A DNA stretch of 64,000 nt, from NCBI RefSeq assembly GCF_023008545.1, contig NZ_CP095398.1, positions 372,001 to 436,000 of the forward strand, read 5' to 3'. This DNA is from Natribaculum luteum. GTDB taxonomy: Archaea; Halobacteriota; Halobacteria; Halobacteriales; Natrialbaceae. The position numbers and the translations under genes are program-made. The notes under the pieces were generated by a model. The model was not told the origin of the DNA. It made no database searches and was given only the letters and a program-made list of their open reading frames with translations. Position 1 is the first letter of the stretch; each line of letters opens with the position of its first letter. Positions 33,459 to 49,729 of the stretch are shown here, one piece after another.

Positions 33459-34814
33459 TCACTCGAGGCCGTCGAACTGCTCGTCGAGGTACTTCGTCGT
33501 GTGTTCGTTCTCCCGGAACTGTTCGTCCGCGAGCACCGCGAGGTGGAACGGAATCGTCGTCGAGACGCCGTCGATCTCCGCCTCCTCGAGGACGCGACGG
33601 CTCCGTGCGAGCACTTCCTCGCGGTCCTGGCCGGAGACGACGTATTTGCCGATCAGCGAGTCGTAGTACGGGCTGATCCGGTCGCCCTGGTCGACGCCGT
33701 CGTCGACGCGGACGCCCATCCCGGTCGGCGGCCGGTACGTCTCGAGCGTCCCCGGCGTCGGCGCAAAGTCATTTCGCGGATCCTCGGCGTTGATCCGAAA
33801 CTCCATCGCCGCACCGCGCGGTTCGACGTCCGCCTGGGTAAATGTGAGTTCCTCGCCCGCCGCAATGTGGAGCTGTTGCTTGACGACGTCGATGCCCGTC
33901 ACGGCCTCCGTGATGGTGTGTTCGACCTGGATTCGGGCGTTGACCTCGAGGAAGTAGAAGTCGTTGTCGGCCGCCTCGTAGAGGAACTCGACGGTTCCCG
34001 CATTGACGTAGCCAGCCTCGGAGACGCCCTGCCGGGCGGCCGCACAGAGCTCCTCGCGCGTCTGTTCGTCCAGCGACGGCGACGGCGTCTCCTCGATGAG
34101 TTTCTGCTGGCGACGCTGGACCGAGCAGTCCCGCTCGTAGAGGTGTCTGGCGTTCCCGTGAGCGTCGACGAGGACCTGCACCTCGACGTGGCGCGGGTTC
34201 TCGAGGAACTTCTCCACGTAGACTGCCGGGTTGCCGAAGTAGGCCTCACCTTCCCGGCGTGCCTCCTCGAGTGCCGCCTCGATCTCGCTCTCGTCTTCGA
34301 CGACCTTCAGCCCGCGTCCGCCGCCGCCGCCGTCGGCTTTGATCGCGACGGGATAGCCGTGTTCGTCGGCGAACGCCCGAACCTCCGCGGGCGAGTCGAC
34401 GGTGCCAGACGTCCCGGGGACGACCGGGACGCCCGCGTCCTGCATGATGGCTCGAGACTCCGTCTTCTCGCCGAATTCGGCCATCACGTCCGCCGGCGGG
34501 CCGATCCAGGTAATTCCTTCTGCCTCCTCGACGCAGCGGGCGAACGACTCGCTCTCGGCGAGAAAGCCGTATCCGGGGTGGATCGCGTCCGCACCCGTCT
34601 CGCGGGCTGCCTCGAGGATGGCCTCCTGCTCGAGGTAACTCTTTCTGGCGACCGACGGGCCGACGTGGGCGGCGACGTCGGCGTGGCGGACGTGTTTCGC
34701 CGTCTCGTCGGCGTCGCTGTAGATCGCGACCGTCTCGATACCCAGCTCCTGGGCAGCCTGTATCACCCGAACCGCAATCTCCCCGCGGTTGGCGACGAGG
34801 ACCGTATCGAACAT
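33459..34814 (-). CDS. Biotin carboxylase (acetyl-/propionyl-CoA carboxylase subunit)
   Basis: 451 residues: N-terminal biotin carboxylase domain ([20 protein letters not shown]), ATP-grasp with the glycine-rich loop [14 protein letters not shown], and the active-site strand [20 protein letters not shown] with catalytic Arg. The C-terminal BC domain ends at LDEQFDGLE. It carboxylates biotin carried on another protein. Haloarchaeal relatives often continue into a biotinyl (BCCP) domain; here there is none, and no BCCP or carboxyltransferase gene is within the window, so partners must be encoded elsewhere. It is divergent from the giant toxin-like gene. Confidence 0.88.
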
Positions 34815-34913
34815 CGTACAGACAATGGGCGTGCAGGACTTATATGGATTAGCTCAGGAATGGGATTGTTTGGTAGAAAGTATTATTATCTATCCATTAT
34901 ATTATCTATACTA

Positions 34914-37900
34914 ATGCAATATCTGTCAAAAAGTGATTCAATACGTCGTACTGGGTTGATAGCAATTGTTCTCTCTATTTTAATGGTAACAGGGACTATC
35001 GCGCCCGTCCTCGCGATGGACGCTGCCCCGGAGAGGGTAGAGTCGGACGTGAATGCTGATCGGCCACCGGAAGCTATTCTCGAGCGTGACGAGGTCGACA
35101 ACCTGACCGAGGGGGGGCCGACGCTCCAGAAGACGTGGGCACGATTCCTGCTCACGCACGGCTCGCAGTCGAATACTGATGCGGACGCAGACGCACTCGC
35201 CCACCTCAACGAGTCGATCGAATACGCGACTGGGCCGAGTCGGGTATCGGGCGCGGCGGCGTTCGACCACTCTGCGAGCGCCGTCGAATCGCTGTCGCTG
35301 ACCGGTGAGCAGGAGACCGACGAACTGCGGATTCTGGCCGGTCACCTCGTCGTCTCTGCAGACAACGAGACTGCAGCAAAACGGATTGCAGACGCCCGGT
35401 GGGCACTCGAGCACACCCGCGGAGACCTTCACACGGGCGTCGAACGGAGTGCGACGGCACACATCCGGAACGCCGAACGCGCGTACGATCGCGCCCAGAC
35501 GCGGATCGAAGACGCCGACGCGGACGATTTCGAGACGCAGGCGAGCGCGATCAACCAGTATCGGATCGCCTGGCTGCAGGCGACGAAGGCGCTCGACGCG
35601 ATCGACGCCGCGACGCCCCCCGAAGTGACGATCACGACCCGTGGGGACCCACCGCGTAACGGCAGTGAGTCGATCACGGGCGAGATTCGAGGGACCGTCT
35701 TCGACGTTCGTCCCGAGACGTTGACCAACGCGACGGTAACGGTCGGCGGAAACGAGACGAAGACCGTTCCGCTCGAGACCAGTGGTAGCCGCGCCAACGC
35801 CACGTTCGCGACGAACGTGACGCTCCACGAGCGGATCACGTCGGTCGAAGTCGAAGTCGTCGACCGCGTCTCGGAGAGCAGCGGGGACGACGAGCAATCC
35901 AAGCGCGGTGGAAACGCCGGGAACGGGAACGGGAACGGGAACGGGAACGGGAACGGGAAATCCAGTACAAACGACCGTGGTGCCGGCGGAGCACCGGCCG
36001 GCAAATCCGACGGTCCCCAGGTCGACACCGACGTCGTTCTCTTCGACGGCGACGGACTGCCAGATACGTACGAAACCGAGGTCGTCGGGACCGATCCGCA
36101 CGATCCAGACAGCGACTCGCCGAACGTCGACGAGGACGTCGGCGACAACGGGGTCATCGACGGCCTCGAGGACTTCGACGACGACAACGTCACCAACTAT
36201 CACGAGGGCCGGTTCGACACCGACCCGTTCGCGGCCGACACCGACGGTGACGGGCTTCCCGACCGTTTCGAAGTCCAGTACCCGACGCTCGACCAGACGA
36301 GTGCAGACACCGACGACGACGGGGTCACCGATGCCGAGTGGGACGTCGACGACGACGGGGTCACCGATGCCGAGTGGGACGTCGACGACGACGGGTTGAC
36401 GAACTACGAGGAGTACGAAGCCGGGACCAATCCACTTCTGGCCGACGAGGACGGAGACGGATTGAACGATAGTCGTGAACTCGAGGTCGGAACCGATCCA
36501 CGAGATCCCGACACCGACGGTGACGGCCTGCTCGACGGCGAGGAGATCGAACTCGGGACCGATCCGCTGGTCGCCGACACCGACGGCGACGGCGTCGACG
36601 ACGGCAACGCCACCCACACGACGAGCGCGAGCAACGACTCGCTCGGCGTCGACGTCGCCGTAACCGGCCCGGGGAACCTCGCGGAGGGCGTGACGATCGA
36701 CCCGAACGACGACCAGCGGTTCGAGACCCACGGCGTCGAGAACGCCAGCGTCTCGCCGGTGATCGAACTCGAGTCCGAGCGGGAGTTCGACCGCGCGAAC
36801 GTCACCGTCGCGTACGACGAGACGGCCGTCGACGACGGCGAGGCGGACGAACTGGCGGTGTTCCGATTCAACGAGACCACACAGACGTTCGAACCGCTTC
36901 CCTCGACGGTCGATCCCGAGAACGGAACGATCACGGGAGAGACCACACAGTTCTCGACGTTCGTCGTCTTCCACGTGCCGAACTGGGTCGCCCAGTTCGA
37001 GGCGACAGAGCCGGTCGACGGGGGTACTGGTGGGAACGTCTCCGAGACCCAGCCCGTCGACACGATGTTCGTCGTCGACACCTCGGGTTCGATGGGCTGG
37101 AACGATCCGAACGGGTACCGGAAGACCGCAGCGAAGCGGTTCGTCGGCGCGCTGATCGACGGCGATCGGGCCGGGGTCGTCGACTTCGACAGTTACGCGA
37201 CGGTCACGCAGGATCTTTCGGGCGATTTCGACGCCGTCAACGACAGTATCGACCGACTCGGTGCCTCCGGTGGGACGAACATCGGTGCTGGACTCCGCGA
37301 AGCGAACCGCCACTTCGACGCCAAGAGCAACGATTCACGCTCGAAAGTGACGATTTTGCTCACCGATGGTGACGGAAGCGGCGGCAGAGCCGAGGCGGAA
37401 GCCGCCGCCGAGCGGAATATCACGATCTACACGATCGGGTTTGGATCGCCCAACGAAGCGAAACTGAAGGCGATCGCGAGCGAGACCAACGGGACGTACT
37501 ACGAAGTCGATAGTGCCGAAGACCTCCCCGACGTGTTCTCGCGAGTTGCCGAGAACACGACTGGCGGGACCGATACCGACGGCGATGGACTGCCGGACGA
37601 GGTCGAGGCGACGGGTCTTCGAACCGGCTGGGCGGAGTACGTCTACACCGACCCGTACGACGCCGACACCGACGGCGACGGCCTCGACGACGGAGAAGAG
37701 ATCGAACGCAGGGTCACTGTCGACGTCAACCGGTCCGGGTACCAGTACAACTACACCTACTACGAACTCCGGAGCGATCCGTCGAAGCTCGACTCTGACG
37801 GAGACGGTCTCGACGACTACACGGAGACGCGTGAGCCGACGACCGTCGTCCACACGACCGATCCCGACGCGACGAGGGCGGTCACCGAAGCCGGCGGCGA

Positions 37901-40271
37901 GAACGCCGACGCGATCGACGGCGAGTACGAAACGTACGAGGTGTACACCGATCCGCTAGAAGCGGACACCGACGGCGACGGCCTCGACGACGCTCGCGAA
38001 CGCGCACTCGCGACGGACCCGATGGATCGGGATACCGACGGCGACGGCATCGCCGACGCGGACGAACTCGAGGGCGTCGGTGATCCGACGCTGTACGATG
38101 CCCTGCCGCCGGAGATCGACGTCCGGAGCTCGGGGTATCACATCCCCGAGATGAGCCTCGACACCACCTACTGGGTCTACGTCCACATCCGCGACCCGGC
38201 AGGCGTCGAACGCGCCGCACTGGTGAAAGACGGCAACGAGGAGAAAACCGAAACCTACGACGGCGACACAGAGGTCTACGACACCCTCGAGTTCACCGAG
38301 GAACTCGCCGAGTCGGAGACCGACGTCGACACGAGTAGCGTCACGTCGACGTTCATCTCGTTCGGTTCGAAGGCCACGGAAACGGTCGGAAGCGTCGCCG
38401 AATCCGTCGGTGACACGACGGCCGGGACGACGGTCTACGTCGAGAGCAGCGACACAAACGGCAACGGCCACCAGGTCGTCGGCGTCCAGCGGGCGAACTT
38501 CTACAGTGAGGCAGCCGGGAGCCTCTACACCGGGACGCTCATCGACCAGGCCGTCGCCAGCGAGTTCGGTACGATTTCGGGCTTTTCCTCGAGTCTCGGC
38601 GTCGTCTTCCAGGACGTCTCCCAGCTCATCGACGACCCCGCCTCCGTCGTCGAGGGGGTCCAGGCGCTCCTGTCGCTGGTCGAAGAGGAGCAACTCGGGG
38701 CCGCCGAGACGCTGGTCGAGGCGATGGTCCAGGGCGTCGAGCAAAAGCAGGCGCTGAACAATCCCTACGGCTCACTCGAGGAGAAAGAGCATCCCGCACT
38801 GTACGACACGTTCCGGGTGAACTGGTACGAGGGCTACGCCGGCGGCTTCCTCGTCAAGACCGCACTCGGTGGCGCGACCTCGAGTAGCGCCAAAGCGACG
38901 ATCAAGAGTACGGATGCCGTCCAGGACGTCAGCTCGAGGCTGGCCGATACCCGGGCACTTCGGGCACTCTCGCGCGTCGAGGATGCGAAAGACGCCGCGA
39001 AGGCCCGTGCGACCGCCCGCATTCTGCTCGCTGTCGACGGTGACGCTGCCGAGCCGCTGTTGAGTCAGGCCGATACTGCTGGCAGTGCATACCGGCTCTG
39101 GCGTCACCAGCGGGCGATGGACGCGGACGTGGACAAACTATCTGAGATCGGACAAGAGAGGTTGGCGCAGACGCTCTCGAACGCGGATGCTGATGCCCAG
39201 TCTGCGATTCGCCGAATGGATCAAGACGCGCTAGACGATTTGACGGGTCTGGATGTCGATCCGACCGTCCGCGCGGGGTTAGCGCCCAAATTTGCGGAGT
39301 TGGACGCAGCAAAGCGCCAGCAGCTGACGCAAGCACTCTCCGATAATTCAGAGGCCGCAGAGAACGTCGCACGACTTGATACTGATGGGACCCGTGATGC
39401 ACTCGAGTTCTACTGTGGTAGTGGGGCCACTCCAAAAATCAGTGGCGCAGGTGTATCAGCAATCGGAGACGGTCGCTTCTACAGTATCCAACCTGCGCTC
39501 AAGGAAGGTTGTACGATCCAGACCGATTTCGACTCGCCGATGTGGAAGGTTGATTCTGACGTCCGAGATTCTCTCAATAAGCGCCTAGAAACCGAAGAGT
39601 TCACTCGTCTCGTCAGAAGCGATGTCGATTCAAACGCGCTGGAGGCCACCGACGACCTGGATACGGTTTCAGCTGTGAAACGAACTGACGGTGAGCTTGT
39701 GATCGAAGGAGAAAAGCATGGTATCGACGTGAAAATGACTTATCCGGACAATCAGGAAAGCTTCTATACAACAAATAGTGATACTGTGGATTCGATCGAG
39801 GACCTTCGTGACATGAGCAGTCAGAAAATTGGTGCAGACGTGGTCGAAGAGGAGATCGTACCGAAACTCATCGAACAGCGAGATGGCTACGAACTCCTTT
39901 ATGCGGAGCAGAAAGGTGGGACAGACGCTGGGATCGATCTCATATCAAAGGACAGTGATGGAAATTACATAATTACGGAAGTCAAATTCACACGTTCAAG
40001 AGAGACACCAGGAAAGGGAATGATGGACTCGTATCGGGGTGACTATCGTCAGATGACCGACGAATGGATCGAGGATAGCTTCGAAAAAGAAATTGATGAG
40101 AGCGAGTTGAGTGAGTACGAGAGTGTGCGAAACGTAATCGAGATCAATTCATATAAGAAAGAAACAATTGTCGTTCAGGATAGTTCCACATCACGGTCGA
40201 TCACCGAAGGGCTCACAGATTTCGAACTCGATGATGTGACTGTCGTCCGAACCGGTGGTGTGACACGATGA
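34914..40271 (+). CDS. Giant secreted TSP3-VWA protein with C-terminal PD-(D/E)xK-like nuclease tip (candidate polymorphic toxin)
   Basis: 1785 residues from ATG 34914. ATG 34860 is also in frame, but 34914 gives a clean signal peptide (RRTGLIAIVLSILMVTG then APVLA, residues about 11-35). Order: helical domain (~40-236); beta region; GNGNGN linker (~336-348) coded by six GGGAAC units; thrombospondin type-3 calcium repeats (DTDGDGLxD, ~376-566); VWA domain (~716-882) with MIDAS FVVDTSGSMG, GGTNIGAGL and LLTDGDG; a second TSP3 array (~885-1060); a helical alanine-rich region (~1300-1500); tip (~1560-1785) with GTDAGIDLISKDSDGNYIIT then EVKF (Asp ~1675, Glu 1689, Lys 1691), the PD-(D/E)xK pattern. 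The tip DNA is visibly less GC-rich. The stop overlaps the next gene's start, so the pair is coupled. Confidence 0.8.
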   Translation: MQYLSKSDSIRRTGLIAIVLSILMVTGTIAPVLAMDAAPERVESDVNADRPPEAILERDEVDNLTEGGPTLQKTWARFLLTHGSQSNTDADADALAHLNESIEYATGPSRVSGAAAFDHSASAVESLSLTGEQETDELRILAGHLVVSADNETAAKRIADARWALEHTRGDLHTGVERSATAHIRNAERAYDRAQTRIEDADADDFETQASAINQYRIAWLQATKALDAIDAATPPEVTITTRGDPPRNGSESITGEIRGTVFDVRPETLTNATVTVGGNETKTVPLETSGSRANATFATNVTLHERITSVEVEVVDRVSESSGDDEQSKRGGNAGNGNGNGNGNGNGKSSTNDRGAGGAPAGKSDGPQVDTDVVLFDGDGLPDTYETEVVGTDPHDPDSDSPNVDEDVGDNGVIDGLEDFDDDNVTNYHEGRFDTDPFAADTDGDGLPDRFEVQYPTLDQTSADTDDDGVTDAEWDVDDDGVTDAEWDVDDDGLTNYEEYEAGTNPLLADEDGDGLNDSRELEVGTDPRDPDTDGDGLLDGEEIELGTDPLVADTDGDGVDDGNATHTTSASNDSLGVDVAVTGPGNLAEGVTIDPNDDQRFETHGVENASVSPVIELESEREFDRANVTVAYDETAVDDGEADELAVFRFNETTQTFEPLPSTVDPENGTITGETTQFSTFVVFHVPNWVAQFEATEPVDGGTGGNVSETQPVDTMFVVDTSGSMGWNDPNGYRKTAAKRFVGALIDGDRAGVVDFDSYATVTQDLSGDFDAVNDSIDRLGASGGTNIGAGLREANRHFDAKSNDSRSKVTILLTDGDGSGGRAEAEAAAERNITIYTIGFGSPNEAKLKAIASETNGTYYEVDSAEDLPDVFSRVAENTTGGTDTDGDGLPDEVEATGLRTGWAEYVYTDPYDADTDGDGLDDGEEIERRVTVDVNRSGYQYNYTYYELRSDPSKLDSDGDGLDDYTETREPTTVVHTTDPDATRAVTEAGGENADAIDGEYETYEVYTDPLEADTDGDGLDDARERALATDPMDRDTDGDGIADADELEGVGDPTLYDALPPEIDVRSSGYHIPEMSLDTTYWVYVHIRDPAGVERAALVKDGNEEKTETYDGDTEVYDTLEFTEELAESETDVDTSSVTSTFISFGSKATETVGSVAESVGDTTAGTTVYVESSDTNGNGHQVVGVQRANFYSEAAGSLYTGTLIDQAVASEFGTISGFSSSLGVVFQDVSQLIDDPASVVEGVQALLSLVEEEQLGAAETLVEAMVQGVEQKQALNNPYGSLEEKEHPALYDTFRVNWYEGYAGGFLVKTALGGATSSSAKATIKSTDAVQDVSSRLADTRALRALSRVEDAKDAAKARATARILLAVDGDAAEPLLSQADTAGSAYRLWRHQRAMDADVDKLSEIGQERLAQTLSNADADAQSAIRRMDQDALDDLTGLDVDPTVRAGLAPKFAELDAAKRQQLTQALSDNSEAAENVARLDTDGTRDALEFYCGSGATPKISGAGVSAIGDGRFYSIQPALKEGCTIQTDFDSPMWKVDSDVRDSLNKRLETEEFTRLVRSDVDSNALEATDDLDTVSAVKRTDGELVIEGEKHGIDVKMTYPDNQESFYTTNSDTVDSIEDLRDMSSQKIGADVVEEEIVPKLIEQRDGYELLYAEQKGGTDAGIDLISKDSDGNYIITEVKFTRSRETPGKGMMDSYRGDYRQMTDEWIEDSFEKEIDESELSEYESVRNVIEINSYKKETIVVQDSSTSRSITEGLTDFELDDVTVVRTGGVTR
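35919..35954 (+). repeat. Six tandem GGGAAC units
   Basis: Perfect hexamer array coding the Gly-Asn linker of the giant protein. Its copy number can change without changing the frame. Confidence 0.9.
36312..36383 (+). repeat. Tandem duplication of a 36-bp unit inside the TSP3 array
   Basis: Two identical 36-base units, each coding DDDGVTDAEWDV, followed by the start of a third (GACGACGACGGGTTGAC). This adds one calcium loop and shows recent in-frame expansion. Confidence 0.9.
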
Positions 40272-41455
40272 AATATTCCGAAGAAACGCTTCACGAGTGT
40301 CTAAAAGACGGTCTAGAGGGGCTTCAACGGAAAGAACGACTGTGGCAAGACGGTGGCGTTCCCATTGACGGGATAACTAATATCACCCGGGCTACGGCGA
40401 AAGAGTACGAACGGGTAGCAACATGTGCTGCGTTACTTAATGCAACACAGCAGTCTTGGCTGTGGTTTGGGAAAGCAGCTCAGTTCTATTTCGAGCAGAT
40501 TTGTGCAGGTCGTCTTCGGCGTGACATTCGTGGGCGGTTCGTCTGGGAGGGAGAGCCCCGAAAATTCTACCATGCATTGAACACCGCCGTACTGAGCCGG
40601 CAGGAGGAACTCATTACGGAGATTGCAACTGCAGCCATCGAGGTAGACGAATCCTATCTGGAGGAGTTCGCTGCAGACTATCCAGATAGTCCGCCTCAAT
40701 ATTACGACATGAAAGTACACGCTGCGCTGATACTTGACGATGACCAGGTGACGGTGTATCTCGATGAGCTGCGTGCCGCGATCGACGAGCATGCAGACGC
40801 GAGCCAGTACTGGAAGACGATTCCTCAGTATTATCAGGCGATCGTCGACGAATCAGCGTCAGCTGCTGAAGCGGCTATCGCGGACCTCTATAGTTTCTTT
40901 GCAGATCACGAACCAGATCCTGAAGATCCACGAGAGTATGTCCTCCACGACGTCTGTGCGTACATTGTACTTGCACGTCATCGGGACATAGGTGTGGACG
41001 TTCCCCTCGAGTCAGACCGCCTTCCAGCGGCACTTCTCAGGGACGACGCTCCAGAGGACGACGTCGAATTGGACGTTGAACCAGGTGATATACGGGTCAA
41101 TAGCACGGTCGGCCTGTTTGAGCTCGAATATGATGACGATGGAACACCGGTGATCGCCGGCCGAATATACCACCCAGGTGGCGAGCCAGTGAGCGCCGAC
41201 GACGTTCCCGAGCGAGAGGCAGGTCAGGTGCTCTCCGACGACTGGATCAAGGCTGCCCTCGAGGAGGCTAACTGGCGCGACCACTATGACAATGAGTTGG
41301 TTGCCGACGCGACGGCAGCCTTCGAAAATGGGGAGCTGATCCGGAAATTGGTCGTCGTCCAAGATCGAGTTGATCAGTACACGTTCGACGAATCGATGAG
41401 TGAACTGCCGGTCGACGATATCGAACTCCTGAAAGGGGCTGGTCGGCGGAGCTGA
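40268..41455 (+). CDS. Candidate immunity protein for the upstream nuclease toxin
   Basis: 395 residues with no signal peptide or membrane segment, mainly helical (YERVATCAALLNATQQSWLWF, FYFEQICAGRL, SRQEELITEIATAAIEV), then an acidic, mixed C-terminal third. Its ATG (40268-40270) overlaps the TGA of the giant protein, tight coupling expected for toxin-immunity pairs. The helical repeat-like first half brings to mind the Imm49-type immunity proteins, but I cannot confirm that. It would have to act inside the cell to protect against the nuclease tip. Base composition is closer to the toxin tip than to the GC-rich host genes, consistent with joint transfer. Confidence 0.55.
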   Translation: MKYSEETLHECLKDGLEGLQRKERLWQDGGVPIDGITNITRATAKEYERVATCAALLNATQQSWLWFGKAAQFYFEQICAGRLRRDIRGRFVWEGEPRKFYHALNTAVLSRQEELITEIATAAIEVDESYLEEFAADYPDSPPQYYDMKVHAALILDDDQVTVYLDELRAAIDEHADASQYWKTIPQYYQAIVDESASAAEAAIADLYSFFADHEPDPEDPREYVLHDVCAYIVLARHRDIGVDVPLESDRLPAALLRDDAPEDDVELDVEPGDIRVNSTVGLFELEYDDDGTPVIAGRIYHPGGEPVSADDVPEREAGQVLSDDWIKAALEEANWRDHYDNELVADATAAFENGELIRKLVVVQDRVDQYTFDESMSELPVDDIELLKGAGRRS

Positions 41456-41737: not shown

Positions 41738-43017
41738 CTACCCGAGTAACTCGGCAGGTGTGTAATCACCGTTCACGTTCAGCGTCCCTGACTTGAGGGT
41801 CAGTTGACTGGTGGCCCATCCACCGCGAGACTTCTGCCCGCGATGGATATACCCGCAATACCGCACAGCGATGTTCTTCGCCGCGTTGTAATCCGCGTTC
41901 ACCTCATACCCACAATCCACGCACTCGAACTGTTTGTCGTCGCGGTTATTCTCGTGGGTAAACCCACAGCAAGAGCAACGCTGCGACGTGTACGCAGGAT
42001 TCACAGTATCCACGAACAACGCCGTGGATTCAACTTTGTACTCCACGAGTTCCACGAATTTCGCGTAGGCCCACTGCTGGAACTTACTGCCGTTGGCGAT
42101 GTTCTCGCGGATGTGGTCGAGGTTCTCGAAAATGATTCCGTCCACATCCGCTCTCTGGGCTTCCGCGATGAGGTCGTTCGCCCGATTGTGGAGCCAGTCC
42201 AACGACCAATCACTGAACTTGCTGCCGATGGATTGAATCGTGAGGTGCGCGGAGCGAGTACCCGTTTGTTGCAGTTTGGCGCGGCGTTGTTCGTACTGGT
42301 CGCGTTTGTGGGTGAGGTAGTCCGCACTGCCGATGAATTTGCCCGTGCTGGTGACGGCGAACGCGCCAGTCACGTTCAGGTCAACACCGAGAACCACTCC
42401 GTTCTCGGCACCATCATCATCGTGACTGGCTTCTTGGCGTTCCGTTCCGTTCCGTCACCCTCGTAGTCGGGGTTCTTCAGCGTAACGTGCAGGTAACATT
42501 CCTCGCTGTGTTCATCATATTGAAGTGTAGCACTTGAGGCATCCCACTCGTCGCTCTCATAGTAGCGACCGAACGGTGTCTCATCCCGCTCGTCTTCAGG
42601 TGGCAACACGTAGTCAGCTTTGACTCTGCCGTTGACCGTGGAGAGTGTCGCGTGGTCAGCATTGAACGTCGCGGAGCGTTTGTCGTACACTATGCTCCAC
42701 GACTCGAAAACGGGTTGACTCGTCTTCTCACCTTTCTTCAACTTCTCGACGCCTGCATCAACGGCTTCGATGGCACGGCGAATGCCTTTCTGGACGAGGT
42801 TGGCTGTTAGGTCGTGTTCTGCTTTCAGGTCGTCGTAGAGTGCTTTCTCGGCTTTGGCTTTCGACGTGATACAGTAATCGTCGTAACGCCACGCCCAGTC
42901 ACTTGTCTGATTCGCACAGTCGAGGAACTGGTTTTTCGTCTGGTGGAGGTCGTCCTCACGGTCGCTAGGCACGTCGAGTTTGACGATGACCGTGCGGCGC
43001 GGAGCGTCGTCCACCAT
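41738..43017 (-). pseudogene. tnpB: TnpB (RNA-guided nuclease family), split by one extra GTTCC unit
   Basis: Two frames together make one TnpB. The N-terminal part is 42376-43017 (MVDDAPRRTVIVKLDVPSD). The C-terminal part is 41738-42397, with RuvC motifs LGVDLN (Asp), IIFENLDHIRE (Glu), zinc ribbon CSCCG/CVDCG and the last Asp in NADYNAAKNI. The break lies in (GTTCC)x3 on the + strand around 42438-42455: removing one 5-base unit restores a continuous frame reading through EGDGTERQEASHDDDGAEN. All three catalytic acids and the zinc ribbon are kept, so the lesion may be recent or reversible. Intact TnpB cuts DNA guided by an RNA from the element's right end. Confidence 0.8.
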
Positions 43018-45126: not shown

Positions 45127-45292
45127 GGTGGAATCCCCCCTCGATAGCTAACACTCCCCTCGGAGACCGATCCGAGTGCATGCGAGAACAGAGACGTCCT
45201 GACAGTCTTCCCGCGCTGAAAGTCGAGGATTGCCGAACGAGGGATAATAAGTCCCGGCGTGGACGGTGATGGTGAATGGTCATTCAGTCATT

Positions 45293-46411
45293 ATGAAGCC
45301 GTGGAGACAGCAGGCCGTGGAGACAGACGTCGGAGACGACCTGCTCGAGTGGAGTCGGACGTCCGGCCCGTTATTGATCGGAATCGTCGTTTCGCTGCTG
45401 TTGTTTCTGTTTGCAGTCCAGTTGCTAGGGACGTCGACGGAGTCTGCAGCGGGCTCGCTCGAGCGACTCTTCAGGCGATACGTCGCCGGGGGTGGATCCG
45501 CCCTGGGGGTGAGCTGGATCGCGACGTACGTGCTCACCAACGGGTCTGTGGTGGCCGCACTCTCCGTGTCGCTATTCAAGGCGGGAATCGTCACGGCCCA
45601 GCAGCTGTTTCTGATGATCGCGGGGTCGCGTCTCGGGGCGGCCGCGATCGTCCTCCTGATCGGGGGCCTCGATTACTTCCAGAAACGGCGCTACTCGATC
45701 GGCGAGGCCACCGAGCTGGGCGTACTGACGTTCCTGTTGACCCACACGGTCTACCTGCCGGCAACCATTTTGGGGTATCTCCTGTTACCGTCACTCCAGA
45801 CGCTACTCGAGGGTGTGACCGGCCGGTTCGAGCTCGCCACGCATCCGTTGGCGGTCTTCGAACCGATTACGCAGGCCATCGTCGACGCCACAGGCGTGGG
45901 TCTGGGGCTGGCCGTCGCCATTCTCGTGTTGTTCACCAGTCTCACCCTCTTCGACTGGGTCCTCGAGCGGGTCGACACCGAGTGGCTTCGCAAGCACTTC
46001 TTCAGTCGGTTCCAGCACAAGTGGACCTCCCTCGGACTGGGGATCCTCATCACCGGTCTCACGACCAGCGTCGCGTTCTCACTGGGCGTGATCGTACCGC
46101 TCTATAACCGCGAGTACGTCAAACGGCGGGAGATCGTTCCCTACGTTCTCGGGGCGAACATCGGGACGCTCTTCGATACGGTCGTCATCGCCGTGCTCCT
46201 GGACACTCCCGAGGGAGCGACGATCACGCTGTCACTGCTTGCAATTGGGACAGTCATAACGGTCGGCATACTGTGGGCGTTTTCGCCGTACTTTCGGTCG
46301 ATCGAAACGATCCACCGCCAACTCACTAACGATCACCGGTATCTCGCCGCCTTTTTCCTCTCACTGGTCGTCGTTCCGACGGTAATCGTCTTCCTGCCAG
46401 TCGTCCTGTGA
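45293..46411 (+). CDS. Na/Pi cotransporter II-related membrane protein
   Basis: 372 residues from ATG 45293; ATAATAAG at 45244-45251 predicts transcription start near 45273, so the earlier ATG 45269 is less likely. It is a multi-spanning protein with two inverted repeats typical of the family: LGVSWIATYVLTNGSVVAALSVSLFKAGI and LGILITGLTTSVAFSLGVI / YVLGANIGTLFDTVV, each with a small-residue/Thr-Ser reentrant motif. It probably transports phosphate or a related anion with sodium. It is 45 bp upstream of UspA, which has its own TATA-like box. Confidence 0.8.
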   Translation: MKPWRQQAVETDVGDDLLEWSRTSGPLLIGIVVSLLLFLFAVQLLGTSTESAAGSLERLFRRYVAGGGSALGVSWIATYVLTNGSVVAALSVSLFKAGIVTAQQLFLMIAGSRLGAAAIVLLIGGLDYFQKRRYSIGEATELGVLTFLLTHTVYLPATILGYLLLPSLQTLLEGVTGRFELATHPLAVFEPITQAIVDATGVGLGLAVAILVLFTSLTLFDWVLERVDTEWLRKHFFSRFQHKWTSLGLGILITGLTTSVAFSLGVIVPLYNREYVKRREIVPYVLGANIGTLFDTVVIAVLLDTPEGATITLSLLAIGTVITVGILWAFSPYFRSIETIHRQLTNDHRYLAAFFLSLVVVPTVIVFLPVVL

Positions 46412-46425
46412 CCGGCACCGCGGTC

Positions 46426-46434
46426 CTATTTAAT
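46426..46434 (+). promoter_or_regulatory. TATA-like box of uspA-type gene
   Basis: CTATTTAAT is centred 26 bp before ATG 46456, so the transcript is predicted to be leaderless. Confidence 0.6.
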
Positions 46435-46455
46435 CCGGTGTGCCGAAGTGACGGT

Positions 46456-46884
46456 ATGGCTTCGATCGACAGGGTTCTCGTGGCGTTCGATGGCACACCT
46501 CTCTCGACGAAGGCACTCGAACACGCGCTCGACGTCTACCCGGACGCGTCGATTACGGTCCTCCACGTCATCGACTACGTCGAAGAGAGCTACGGCGCGA
46601 AAGCGCTGGTCGGTGACGAGACGCTTCAGGAGCGGGCCCACGACCGGTCGGCAGAACTGCTCGCCGAGGCCGAGGAGATCGCCGCCGAACACGACCTCGA
46701 GGTGTCGACGGCGACGGAGGTCGGCAAGTCCGCAGACAAAATCGTCGAGTACGCCGATACACACGACAGCGAGATCATCGTGATCGGGAGTCACGGACGG
46801 TCGGGCATCTCTCGAATACTCCTGGGTTCGGTCGCCGAAACCGTAATCCGCCGTGCGTCAGTGCCCGTCACCGCCGTCAGGTAG
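46456..46884 (+). CDS. Universal stress protein (UspA family)
   Basis: 142 residues, one Usp domain. It starts MASIDRVLVAFDGTPLSTKALEHA. The ATP-binding signature G-2x-G-9x-G-S appears as GSHGRSGISRILLGSVAE near the C-terminus, so this is probably an ATP-binding member. Start 46456 is preferred over upstream in-frame starts because of the TATA-like box at 46426-46434. Confidence 0.9.
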   Translation: MASIDRVLVAFDGTPLSTKALEHALDVYPDASITVLHVIDYVEESYGAKALVGDETLQERAHDRSAELLAEAEEIAAEHDLEVSTATEVGKSADKIVEYADTHDSEIIVIGSHGRSGISRILLGSVAETVIRRASVPVTAVR

Positions 46885-46995: not shown

Positions 46996-47745
46996 TCACC
47001 CGTTCTCGCGATCTTGCAACCGTTCACGGCGCCGCTGGAACTCGTCCTCGTCGATCTCGCCGCGTGCGTACTGGCGTCGAAGAGTCGTCATCGCCGAATC
47101 GGTGTTCTCTGACCGAGTGTCTTTGCGGTGGCGCGCCCAGTAGAGCACTCCACCGATCACGCCGAGAACTCCGAGTGCACTGCCGACGAATGGGAGACCA
47201 CTACCCCAGCCTCCGTTCCGTCCGTTCATCATTCCTGGTCCTCTCCCAGACCCCATCATTCCACCACCGGTATCCCCGTCGCCGGTGGAGCCTTCACTGA
47301 CGCCGGCGGTCCCCTGGTCGACGATCGTCTCGCTTTCGGGTACGTCCCCGTACGGGATCGGGCTCTCTTCGGCTGGACCACCGGGGCTATCGACGACGAT
47401 TCGACCGACCATCCCGACCGACTCGTGTGGGATACAGTAGTAGTCGTACGTGCCCGGCGTCTCGAACGTCTGCTCGAAGCTTCCTTCCGAGATCGTGCCG
47501 CTATCGAAGGCAGTAGCGTCCGATGGGATGCGGTCTGGATAAGCCGTCGCCGAGTGCGACCCAGCTTCGATCTCGAAGCGAACGGTGGCTCCAGGCTCGA
47601 CGTACAGGCCGATCGGATCGAAGTAGTTGTTGCCCATCTCGACGACGGGCGTCTCCTGTGCGGTCGCTGACTGTGTGAGTCCCGTGCTCGCGACTGCACT
47701 CGCTCCGAGCGCTCGCAGGAACTGTCGTCTACTGTGATCTGTCAT
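46996..47745 (-). CDS. Halocyanin-like blue copper protein with SHOCT tail
   Basis: 249 residues. Tat signal: HSRRQFLRALGASAVASTG. Plastocyanin-type domain (~35-120) with type 1 copper ligands His (GSHSATAYP), Cys and His (YYCIPHESVGM) and Met (GMVG). A Gly/Met-rich linker (GGGMMGSGRGPGMMNGRNGG), one membrane helix (LPFVGSALGVLGVIGGVLYWA), then a C-terminal SHOCT domain (TLRRQYARGEIDEDEFQRRR). It would carry electrons or bind copper outside the membrane, with the SHOCT part in the cytoplasm. Fusion of cupredoxin, TM helix and SHOCT is unusual. The neighbours handle metals and thiols. Confidence 0.85.
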   Translation of the reverse strand: MTDHSRRQFLRALGASAVASTGLTQSATAQETPVVEMGNNYFDPIGLYVEPGATVRFEIEAGSHSATAYPDRIPSDATAFDSGTISEGSFEQTFETPGTYDYYCIPHESVGMVGRIVVDSPGGPAEESPIPYGDVPESETIVDQGTAGVSEGSTGDGDTGGGMMGSGRGPGMMNGRNGGWGSGLPFVGSALGVLGVIGGVLYWARHRKDTRSENTDSAMTTLRRQYARGEIDEDEFQRRRERLQDRENG

Positions 47746-47769
47746 GGATCTGGTGTCGGTCTCCGTTCG

Positions 47770-47964
47770 TTATTCGCGGACGATGTCGACGAGCGTCGTG
47801 GGCGTCTTCCGGACGCCGTACTCCGCGGCCGTTTCCAGATCGGTCTGAATGTCGACCTCCCGGAACTCGACGTCCGGATACTCGTCCTCGAGGCCGTCGT
47901 TTTTCTCCCGCTGTGTTGCGCACGCCCCGCACGTCTCCTGCGTGAAGAGGATGACGTCGATCAC
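47770..47964 (-). CDS. Small thioredoxin/glutaredoxin-fold protein (CGAC)
   Basis: 64 residues: VILFTQETCGACATQREKND carries the redox-active C-x-x-C, and RKTPTTLVDIV the cis-Pro of the fold. It is shorter than glutaredoxins (~80), lacking the last helix. It lies 24 bp upstream of the halocyanin-SHOCT gene, in the same direction. It could reduce cysteines of metal-binding partners. TTAAAAAG (minus strand) about 25 bp before ATG suggests a leaderless start. Confidence 0.75.
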   Translation of the reverse strand: MIDVILFTQETCGACATQREKNDGLEDEYPDVEFREVDIQTDLETAAEYGVRKTPTTLVDIVRE

Positions 47965-48325
47965 ATTCTACGCTACGGTCTTGCTTTTTAACGCCATTTC
48001 CCTTCACAATCCTGCGCTAAGACTGACCCAAATTTTCGATTCCAAGGGAGGCGTCGAGAGAGGGGTGCTCGAGCCGTGGCGGAACTCATCCGGTTCGCTC
48101 GAGCTGGTCTCGTCGGCCACAAGCGTCGGTGTAGACGGGCTGACAGTCAGGCAGCCCCAGAATCGGGGGCGAGGATGTGTCCCTGCCCCGACACGCATCC
48201 GTCCGAGCCCACCGATAAGGAAATCCGCCGTGTGGCGGTGCCCCAGGCGGGACCAGCCCGCAATCGGAGTAGTCGAGAGCGGGAATGGAGTGATTCTCGC
48301 CTCGATGAGGCGAGGTTCGTGCCTC
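47965..48325. other. Intergenic stretch, no gene recognised
   Basis: Contains the promoter of the CGAC protein. Long frames here are shadows and lack motifs. Confidence 0.4.
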
Positions 48326-49729
48326 TCAGTGGTGCTCGTGGTTCTGGGAGGAGTTGACTCCCGAAACCTGCGGGTGTGCGTGCGAGAACGCGGTCGGGTT
48401 CTTCTCGAACGAGCGCTTGCACTGGTTCGAGCAGAAGTAGTACGTCTCGCCGTCGTGGGTGGCACTCGGACCGCTCTCGTCGGCCCGCATCCCGCAGACT
48501 GGGTCGCGATACTGTCCGGGCGCACCGAGTCCCCGTCGGTAGACGTAGAGGAGGAATCCCGAGAGGGCGAACGCGATCAGGTTGAGGTAGAACCGGTAGT
48601 CTCGTTCGAAATACGTTTGTTCGGTCGCGGTCTGCCCGCCAGCGAGGTTCGGGACGATGTCGAGGACGGAGAACAACTGCTCCATGAGAAAGCCAGTGAA
48701 GGCCATCGTCACGAAGAAGACGCCGAGGATGTACAGCATCACGGTCCAGCCGTAGTACTTCCGGTAGACGTTCAGGACCGGGATCGTGATGAGATCGGCG
48801 TAGACGAACGCGATGACGCCCGCAAAGCTCACCCCGCCGCCCCACAACGCGACGGCGAACGGGACGTTGCCGATACTCCCCACGAAGCTGATGACCGCGA
48901 TCGCCACGCCCATGACCGCGTTCTCCGCGCTCACGAGCAGTCCGTCACCCTGGAGGAAGAGCGTGTTCCACACGCGCTGCGGGACGAACACGATGACGAA
49001 ACCCGAGATGAGAAAGCCAGCGACGACGTCCTTCCAGATCATCGACCACTCCTTGCGATACTGGTTCCCGAGCTTGTACCAGCCCCCCCACGACAGGAGT
49101 TCGTCCCGCCAGCTGCCGCTTCCCGAGACCGCTTGCTCGTAGGTCTCGAGACAGCCCGCAGAACAGAACTTCAGCGTTTCACCGCCGTCGGTCACGAGCG
49201 AGTACTCGTCTTTCCCCTCCATTCCACAGGTTGGATCTTCGGTGATGCCCTGGTCGTGATCGCGCTGGCTCAGTTCCTCCCGGACCTCGTCGAAGAGAGT
49301 CTCCGGGAGCGTCAGGTGGACGATGAGCGCCATCACGGCGATGAGGATGATCCCACCGAACAGTTCGGCGACCAGAAACTCCCAGCCGAGCAGGATCAGG
49401 ATCATCAGCCCCAGTTCGACGATCAGGTTCGTCGAGGCGAACATGAACGCGAGGACGTTCACGACGTGTGCGCCCTTCTTGAACAGCCCCTTCCCGATCG
49501 CGACAGCGCCAAAGCTACACCCGCTACTGGCGGCGCCGAACAGCGTCGCTTTCGCGACCCCACTGACGTCTCCCTCACCGAGGACCCGTGCCATCCGCTC
49601 TTTGGAGACGTAGACCTGGACGAGACTCGTGATGACGAGTCCCATGATAATCGCCCAGGCAGCGGTCCAGAGAAAGCCGACTCCAATCCGCATCGACTCG
49701 AGAATTCCGTCGACGAGCGCGGCTTCCAT
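48326..49729 (-). CDS. Permease (DUF318/UPF0718 type) with two YHS metal-binding domains and His tail
   Basis: 467 residues. Two permease halves of about four helices each (MRIGVGFLWTAAWAIIMGLV, GCSFGAVAIGKGLFKKGAH; and VVAGFLISGFVIVFV, GSIGNVPFAVALWGGGVSFAG) are separated by a YHS domain (DPTCGMEGK ... FCSAGCLETYEQA, ~166-200). A second YHS domain is C-terminal (DPVCGMRADES ... FCSNQCKRSFEKN, ~410-446). The tail is His-rich (HAHPQ ... NHEHH). YHS and His tail suggest binding of copper or another soft metal, so the protein is probably a metal efflux or uptake permease. Confidence 0.82.
   Translation of the reverse strand: MEAALVDGILESMRIGVGFLWTAAWAIIMGLVITSLVQVYVSKERMARVLGEGDVSGVAKATLFGAASSGCSFGAVAIGKGLFKKGAHVVNVLAFMFASTNLIVELGLMILILLGWEFLVAELFGGIILIAVMALIVHLTLPETLFDEVREELSQRDHDQGITEDPTCGMEGKDEYSLVTDGGETLKFCSAGCLETYEQAVSGSGSWRDELLSWGGWYKLGNQYRKEWSMIWKDVVAGFLISGFVIVFVPQRVWNTLFLQGDGLLVSAENAVMGVAIAVISFVGSIGNVPFAVALWGGGVSFAGVIAFVYADLITIPVLNVYRKYYGWTVMLYILGVFFVTMAFTGFLMEQLFSVLDIVPNLAGGQTATEQTYFERDYRFYLNLIAFALSGFLLYVYRRGLGAPGQYRDPVCGMRADESGPSATHDGETYYFCSNQCKRSFEKNPTAFSHAHPQVSGVNSSQNHEHH

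Follow-up and report, generated by a model that had tools for sequence, protein, structure and literature searches.

A permease, a thioredoxin and a tethered blue-copper protein at one locus

The window analyzed here, the whole 64,000-nucleotide stretch of Natribaculum luteum contig NZ_CP095398.1 (contig C2 of the three in this genome), contains three neighboring minus-strand genes that encode an ArsP_1 permease with two YHS domains, a shortened thioredoxin and a halocyanin-SHOCT protein (Table 1). All three open reading frames (ORFs) of the original prediction are present, and they are not chance ORFs, since permeases of other haloarchaea share 79-97% identity with this one. The permease matches the Pfam models ArsP_1 (PF03773) at 192.1 bits and, in two stretches, YHS (PF04945) at 47.4 bits, above the gathering cut-offs of 32.3 and 30.3, respectively, and it ends in the His-rich tail that had been described for it. 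The fusion of a cupredoxin through a Met-rich linker and a transmembrane (TM) helix to SHOCT was likewise borne out: the protein matches Copper-bind (blue copper, PF00127) at 40.2 bits (cut-off 21.2) and SHOCT (PF09851) at 34.0 bits (cut-off 27), its type-1 copper ligands are intact by motif (H64, C104, H107, and M112), and the linker contains M163, M164, M172, and M173. It scores 45.9 bits against the halocyanin domain model TIGR03102, below the NCBIfam cut-off of 93.8. A hairpin at 48225-48238, after the permease, is the only terminator-like site that fits a gene end; scanning for sigma-70 promoters is not informative in an archaeon.

Table 1 Features of the permease locus, with positions counted in the window (TM, transmembrane; aa, amino acids; nt, nucleotides)
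Feature	Position	Strand	Description	Basis
Na/Pi-cotransporter family protein	45266..46411	+	Outside the island; neighbor retained in the three Natribaculum copies seen	
Universal stress protein	46408..46884	+	Outside the island; neighbor retained in the three Natribaculum copies seen	
Halocyanin-SHOCT	46996..47745	-	249 aa; Tat signal, type-1 cupredoxin, Met-rich linker, TM helix, SHOCT	Pfam and motifs
Truncated thioredoxin	47770..47964	-	64 aa; GTG start; CGAC active site kept	Comparison with orthologs
Upstream element CCTTGGAAT	48039..48047	-	83 nt before the thioredoxin start; matches permease promoters of relatives	
SHOCT-gene 3' remnant	48086..48115	-		30-nt match ending at the SHOCT1 stop in L022/L082
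Permease	48326..49729	-	ArsP_1 (PF03773) with two YHS domains; 467 aa	Pfam, orthologs
C-terminal YHS domain	48380..48505	-	Residues 409-450; Cys 412, 433, and 437	Pfam YHS best stretch
Central YHS domain	49130..49237	-	About residues 165-200, loop between the two halves; Cys 168, 189, and 193	Motif

The remainder of a larger plasmid-borne island

On the Haloarcula marismortui plasmid pNG600, the genes follow in the order permease, MarR, 106-aa protein, SHOCT, DUF302, SHOCT, thioredoxin, and halocyanin-SHOCT, an order that recurs, whole or in part, on plasmids of Halorarius, Salinigranum, Halorientalis, Halorussus, and Halorubrum. The trio in the window is a remainder of this larger plasmid-borne island, reduced by deletion: the MarR regulator, two SHOCT genes and DUF302 are missing, and the permease and thioredoxin genes are separated by 361 bp that hold the 3' remnant of a SHOCT gene. 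Extended to 45 nt (to 48130), the remnant reads ...RRDQLERTG*, where SHOCT1 ends in RREQLERTG. Because the end of the second SHOCT gene is similar, the two ends may have recombined. Beyond the remnant, the next 121 nt can be aligned with the leader of the pNG600 thioredoxin gene, which is 123 nt long. Natribaculum breve, whose permease sits on plasmid CP095391.1, and Natribaculum longum have the same reduced layout as the window.

The middle gene carries a further deletion. The 64-residue CxxC protein of the original prediction is a real ORF that keeps its CGAC site, but it is a 102-aa thioredoxin in a shortened allelic form, not a full-length protein. The N. breve and N. longum orthologs (102 aa) have the same start and run 38 codons further where the window copy jumps; in the window gene, these 38 codons (114 bp) are gone between short CTCGT repeats, with a junction near 47788 at which TPTTLV joins the C-terminal DIVRE directly. 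With them the fold loses its C-terminal third, comprising the final hairpin and helix, and keeps the CGAC site. The window protein scores 27.9 bits against Thioredoxin (PF00085; gathering cut-off 23.5), but without the deleted codons of its ortholog it lacks a complete thioredoxin fold and is probably non-functional. Alternatively, the junction, seen in one genome only, may be a sequencing or assembly error. Because the reduced layout is common to N. breve and N. longum, the large deletion predates that in the thioredoxin gene.

An independent new family of small CxxC proteins was considered for the 64-aa product and rejected, as comparison with the orthologs identifies a deletion allele. Thioredoxin copies at three other loci (L006, L009, and L085) likewise read as broken or shifted, so the gene seems to be easily damaged. 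In six genomes (G003, G036, G065, G294, G368, and G372), the aligned halocyanin-SHOCT ortholog is interrupted by in-frame stop codons, and this gene therefore decays in some genomes as well.

Co-occurrence and spread of the permease and its partners

Among 391 haloarchaeal genomes, the permease (E ≤ 1e-150) was found in 148, representing 45 of 86 genera, and halocyanin-SHOCT (E ≤ 1e-40) in 65. Both occur in 57 genomes, compared with 24.6 expected (Fisher p about 1e-19, uncorrected for relatedness or for islands shared by transfer). The halocyanin gene lies no more than 25 kb from a listed permease in at least 47 of its 65 genomes, and 8 genomes have halocyanin-SHOCT without the permease.

Gene neighborhoods were examined at the best 80 of 149 haloarchaeal loci found with six peptide patterns, some of them taken from YHS domains; conservation counts on these loci are biased towards close relatives, and the left flank exceeds 9 kb at 66 of the 80, the remaining loci being cut. 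Within 10 kb of the permease, they hold small SHOCT proteins (64 loci), TM-MarR (42), DUF302 (36), halocyanin-SHOCT (31), TRASH-AsnC (24), and thioredoxin (17). The co-conservation that the original prediction had named as its check holds for the permease and halocyanin, which occur together in 57 of the 65 halocyanin genomes, and holds only in part for the complete trio, present within 10 kb at only 17 of the 80 loci. At every locus with thioredoxin, halocyanin follows directly, and 14 loci (31 less 17) have halocyanin without it; thioredoxin and halocyanin thus form one unit and the permease another, with the complete trio a minority state.

Nearly all proteins of pNG600-type islands are 98-100% identical across Haloarcula, Halorhabdus, Halorussus, and Halosegnis (the L022-L035 group), and were thus transferred very recently on plasmids. 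Near-identical copper-island proteins were noted at L022, L023, L027, L029, L030, L032, and L035. Natrinema salsiterrestre S1CR25-10 has four permease copies; as anecdotal background, slight growth of this strain at 10 mM copper is reported, in a source that quotes 32 mM, for Halovarius luteus, as the highest haloarchaeal copper tolerance (PMC12029414). The genus name Halovarius resolves to Natribaculum in NCBI taxonomy.

An element shared by permease and thioredoxin upstream regions

At 72-97 nt ahead of the gene start, the element C[CT]TT[TGC]GAAT is present in 24 of the 58 distinct permease upstream regions and in 7 of the 10 thioredoxin upstream regions; as it was discovered on these sequences, both counts are partly circular, and the other genes serve as the control. 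Random windows contain it at a rate of 0.15%. It is absent from the control regions upstream of MarR (0/23), DUF302 (0/21), hyp106 (0/21), CopA_e (0/18), and SHOCT1 (0/17), with single cases before CopA_b and CopA_d (one locus, 1/7 each) and HMA2 (1/17). Small membrane proteins adjoining the permease have the element at other positions (8/14 and 9/12). This distribution suggests that the permease and thioredoxin-halocyanin units are jointly regulated. In the window, an intact element is present before the thioredoxin gene and was not found before the permease.

This missing element, the loss of the regulator and of the SHOCT and DUF302 genes, the SHOCT remnant and the truncated thioredoxin could together mark the window group as a decaying remnant without current function. 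We regard this as rather unlikely, given that the permease and halocyanin genes are intact with conserved ligands and that the reduced layout is kept in three Natribaculum copies whose permeases are 97% and halocyanins about 93% identical.

Copper genes surround the permease in haloarchaeal relatives

The same 80 loci were scored for five copper markers within 10 kb of the permease, namely Cu P1B-ATPase (52 loci), HMA chaperone (45), multicopper oxidase (10), DUF411 (14), and a four-helix Cu-binding protein (9). At least one of the five is present at 62 loci, and TRASH-Lrp regulators are also among the genes of these islands. Identical islands recur in counts per locus, and we therefore recounted by permease clusters at 93% (n = 36), which gave 20/36 for Cu P1B-ATPase, 14/36 for HMA chaperone, and 9/36 for multicopper oxidase. 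For comparison, approximately 3% of 21-kb windows are estimated to hold an HMA domain, a figure derived from six HMA places in the N. luteum genome itself and not from random loci. The original prediction had read the trio as a soft-metal handling module for copper, silver or mercury; the soft-metal reading holds, with a neighborhood indicative of copper, whereas the trio is not the system itself but what is left of the larger island.

Bacterial plasmid relatives of the permease are 31-38% identical to it, and the five sequences examined (L100-L103 and L105) have no YHS domain. A clear copper or heavy-metal context, consisting of CueR, Cu-ATPase, SCO, DUF411, PCu(A)C or heavy-metal two-component genes, surrounds 4 of 10 bacterial loci (L101, L103, L105, and L114), and a partial one is found at three more: a metal-sensitive regulator and DUF305 at L102, the SCO/CcdA part of an L101-type island at L112, and DUF305 with Nramp at L116. 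Among haloarchaeal permeases of the 35% type, L117 lies beside DUF302 and multicopper oxidase genes, and L118 and L104 are without such genes.

The family name ArsP_1 invites another assignment, in which the permease handles arsenic, an organoarsenical or mercury and does no more than share metal-resistance plasmids with copper genes. Of the other two ArsP_1 permeases in the genome (L109:7254-8431 and L111:7972-9150), one does lie in an arsenic region, with ArsA-, ArsD-, and Acr3-like genes named by sequence reading at L111, and each follows an 80-aa CxxC protein. These canonical pairs resemble the window genes in that a PF03773 permease stands beside a small CxxC thioredoxin-like protein; they differ in a partner of another type, the absence of YHS, the arsenic context at L111, and a CSC motif (SPFCSCS) that is missing from the window permease, which reads ASSGCSF. 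When seven proteins of the genome's own arsenic region were compared with the 80 loci, five specific markers (ArsD, ArsA, Acr3, canonical ArsP_1, and the small CxxC partner) were found at none and an ArsC-like query matched 2, and on the absence of the five the arsenic reading was rejected. Where metal genes accompany the bacterial relatives, these genes are named for copper or heavy metal. Among eight haloarchaeal plasmid stretches, none has an annotated mercury reductase, although the PLSDB gene tables are incomplete and no mercury-specific search was made. We consider an arsenic, organoarsenical or mercury substrate improbable. The L111 pair adjoins transposase-like genes.

Conserved cysteines and predicted architecture of the permease

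In an alignment of 41 rows, 4 of them of a second permease type (A2), the three cysteines of the central YHS domain are invariant (41/41), and those of the C-terminal domain, which is missing from the 4 second-type rows, are at least 90% conserved. A second alignment (A1), comprising 21 window-type permeases, 4 second-type permeases with one YHS domain, and 3 bacterial permeases without YHS, shows C71, S285, G287, N288, V289, and P290 without exception in all 28 rows. The second permease type, with a single central YHS domain, is present in some islands (L002:12377-13705; similar in L006, L009, L012, L025, and L031).

A structural model of poor confidence contains two similar halves, each with a broken hairpin bearing the SSGCS or the GNVP segment. 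Counting the helices places the two YHS domains on the same side of the membrane, most likely the cytosolic one, as the arginines that follow the last helix suggest; because the model is poor, we give this topology as a prediction. A Foldseek search of the model against the PDB returned zero matches at E ≤ 0.001 (the YdaH transporter, fifth row at E 0.22, was not used), and searching PDB sequences, whether by the permease itself or by alignment A1, yielded no match to the membrane part. The permease also falls below the SaoE efflux transporter model NF040736 (64.6 bits; equivalog cut-off 325).

Comparison with known copper systems

SO_0444 of Shewanella, a distant member of the superfamily, is reported to be required under Cu or Zn stress, with the mutant impaired (PMC3219624), and a review notes UxC forms of SO_0444 (PMC13188914). 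The SO_0444 family (NF033936) and the window permease are alike in being copper-linked membrane proteins that match ArsP_1; the window permease differs in its two YHS domains, in SSGCS where the canonical paralogs of this genome have CSC, and in missing the cut-off of the family model. By analogy, the permease would work like the SO_0444 copper/zinc exporter, though outside that family's model. Homologous permeases also stand in alphaproteobacterial plasmid copper islands (CueR, Cu-ATPase, DUF305, SCO, CcdA, DUF411, and multicopper oxidase), but these are 36% identical, lack YHS and have different accessory genes. We take COG0701 to be the superfamily of the permease, and compare its member in Haloferax alexandrinus at that level only. 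Exposed to silver, H. alexandrinus is reported to raise a COG0701 permease along with a SHOCT membrane protein, plastocyanins and copA/copZ (PMC10694973).

The archaeal cop cluster of CopA, metallochaperone and TRASH-Lrp regulator is described for Sulfolobus and Halobacterium (PMC3600143), and a 2012 review counts five CopA homologs on pNG600 (PMC4187130). Complete islands of relatives include genes of this kind, whereas no cop gene is near the window copy; the accessible portions of these accounts make no mention of the permease, the DUF302 and SHOCT genes, the thioredoxin or halocyanin-SHOCT. In the open-licence literature we found no paper on DUF318 with a YHS domain, and among titles and the openings of abstracts none that names the permease or the complete island; database annotation of the permease is mostly just "permease". 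The module is widespread and mobile and was not found described, the CopA genes on pNG600 being already known.

A candidate copper exporter

We consider it likely that the trio is what remains of a mobile copper-resistance island of haloarchaea and that export of Cu(I), and probably of Ag(I), is the task of its permease. This reading draws on the gene neighborhood, the conserved ligands and the distant relatives studied by experiment. Gene content, island, deletions, conserved cysteines and the common upstream element are observed; the metal, the direction of transport, the topology and each step of transfer we infer. The permease would act as a secondary transporter that moves Cu(I), probably also Ag(I), out of the cytosol. 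Its two YHS domains, on the same and most likely cytosolic side of the membrane, would each capture copper via three cysteines and hand it to the membrane core, the site of the invariant C71 in the SSxCS segment. The thioredoxin would keep the YHS thiols and the copper reduced. Once exported, the copper would be accepted or scavenged on the outer side of the membrane by the blue-copper protein, which is tethered there and carries the Met-rich linker.

Several observations weigh against this interpretation. None of the five copper markers is found within 10 kb at 18 of the 80 loci, most permease loci are without thioredoxin, and 3 of the 10 bacterial loci (L100, L113, and L115) have no metal context. 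The window contains no island Cu-ATPase or HMA match, and every HMA hit in this genome falls on contig C1, not on C2. Finally, the permease fails the SO_0444 Cu/Zn efflux model NF033936 (74.5 bits; equivalog cut-off 300), and its structural model has a mean predicted local distance difference test score (pLDDT) of only 56.

The same components could instead serve import or delivery of copper, for example in the maturation of multicopper oxidases or halocyanin, with the YHS domains as gating sensors. SCO, CcdA, and TlpA act in copper-center or cytochrome assembly, and their genes lie beside bacterial relatives of the permease; the haloarchaeal islands also hold multicopper oxidases and several cupredoxins. 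Elsewhere, in a cyclase of Mycobacterium phlei, the YHS domain is described as a probable copper sensor (PMC4626032). The islands nevertheless hold Cu-translocating ATPases and resistance-type regulators, and SO_0444, the sole experimentally studied copper-linked relative found, is reported to protect against Cu and Zn (PMC3219624), which makes import or delivery improbable.

Returning to export, we advance only tentatively, as a possibility about which we are more doubtful than confident, that the two-YHS permease founds a class of ATP-independent Cu(I)/silver exporters. In such a class, the cytosolic YHS domains would be built-in metallochaperones or gates, a redox partner under common regulation and a blue-copper acceptor, exported and tethered, would work alongside them, and the exporter would form the core of a mobile copper island passed between haloarchaeal genera. 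If the permease exports copper, it would be a second archaeal exporter beside the P1B-ATPases, with its metal-binding domains built in, and haloarchaeal copper and silver tolerance would gain a testable, plasmid-mobile genetic basis.

Other features of the islands and the window

In the island MarR (L082:10425-11024), the winged helix is preceded by an N-terminal membrane helix and by a segment rich in Met, and the protein is possibly a membrane-bound one-component copper sensor. Elsewhere in the window, positions 33501-40271 (+), with a true start probably near 34.9 kb, encode a large surface protein with a VWA domain, five TSP3 repeats and a C-terminal end that is nuclease-like by eye; a 395-aa acidic protein without a Pfam match follows directly (40268-41455, +), and the two genes look like the layout of a haloarchaeal polymorphic toxin with its immunity protein. 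A TnpB-type protein with a Cas12f1-like TNB domain is split over two reading frames at 41738-43017 (-).

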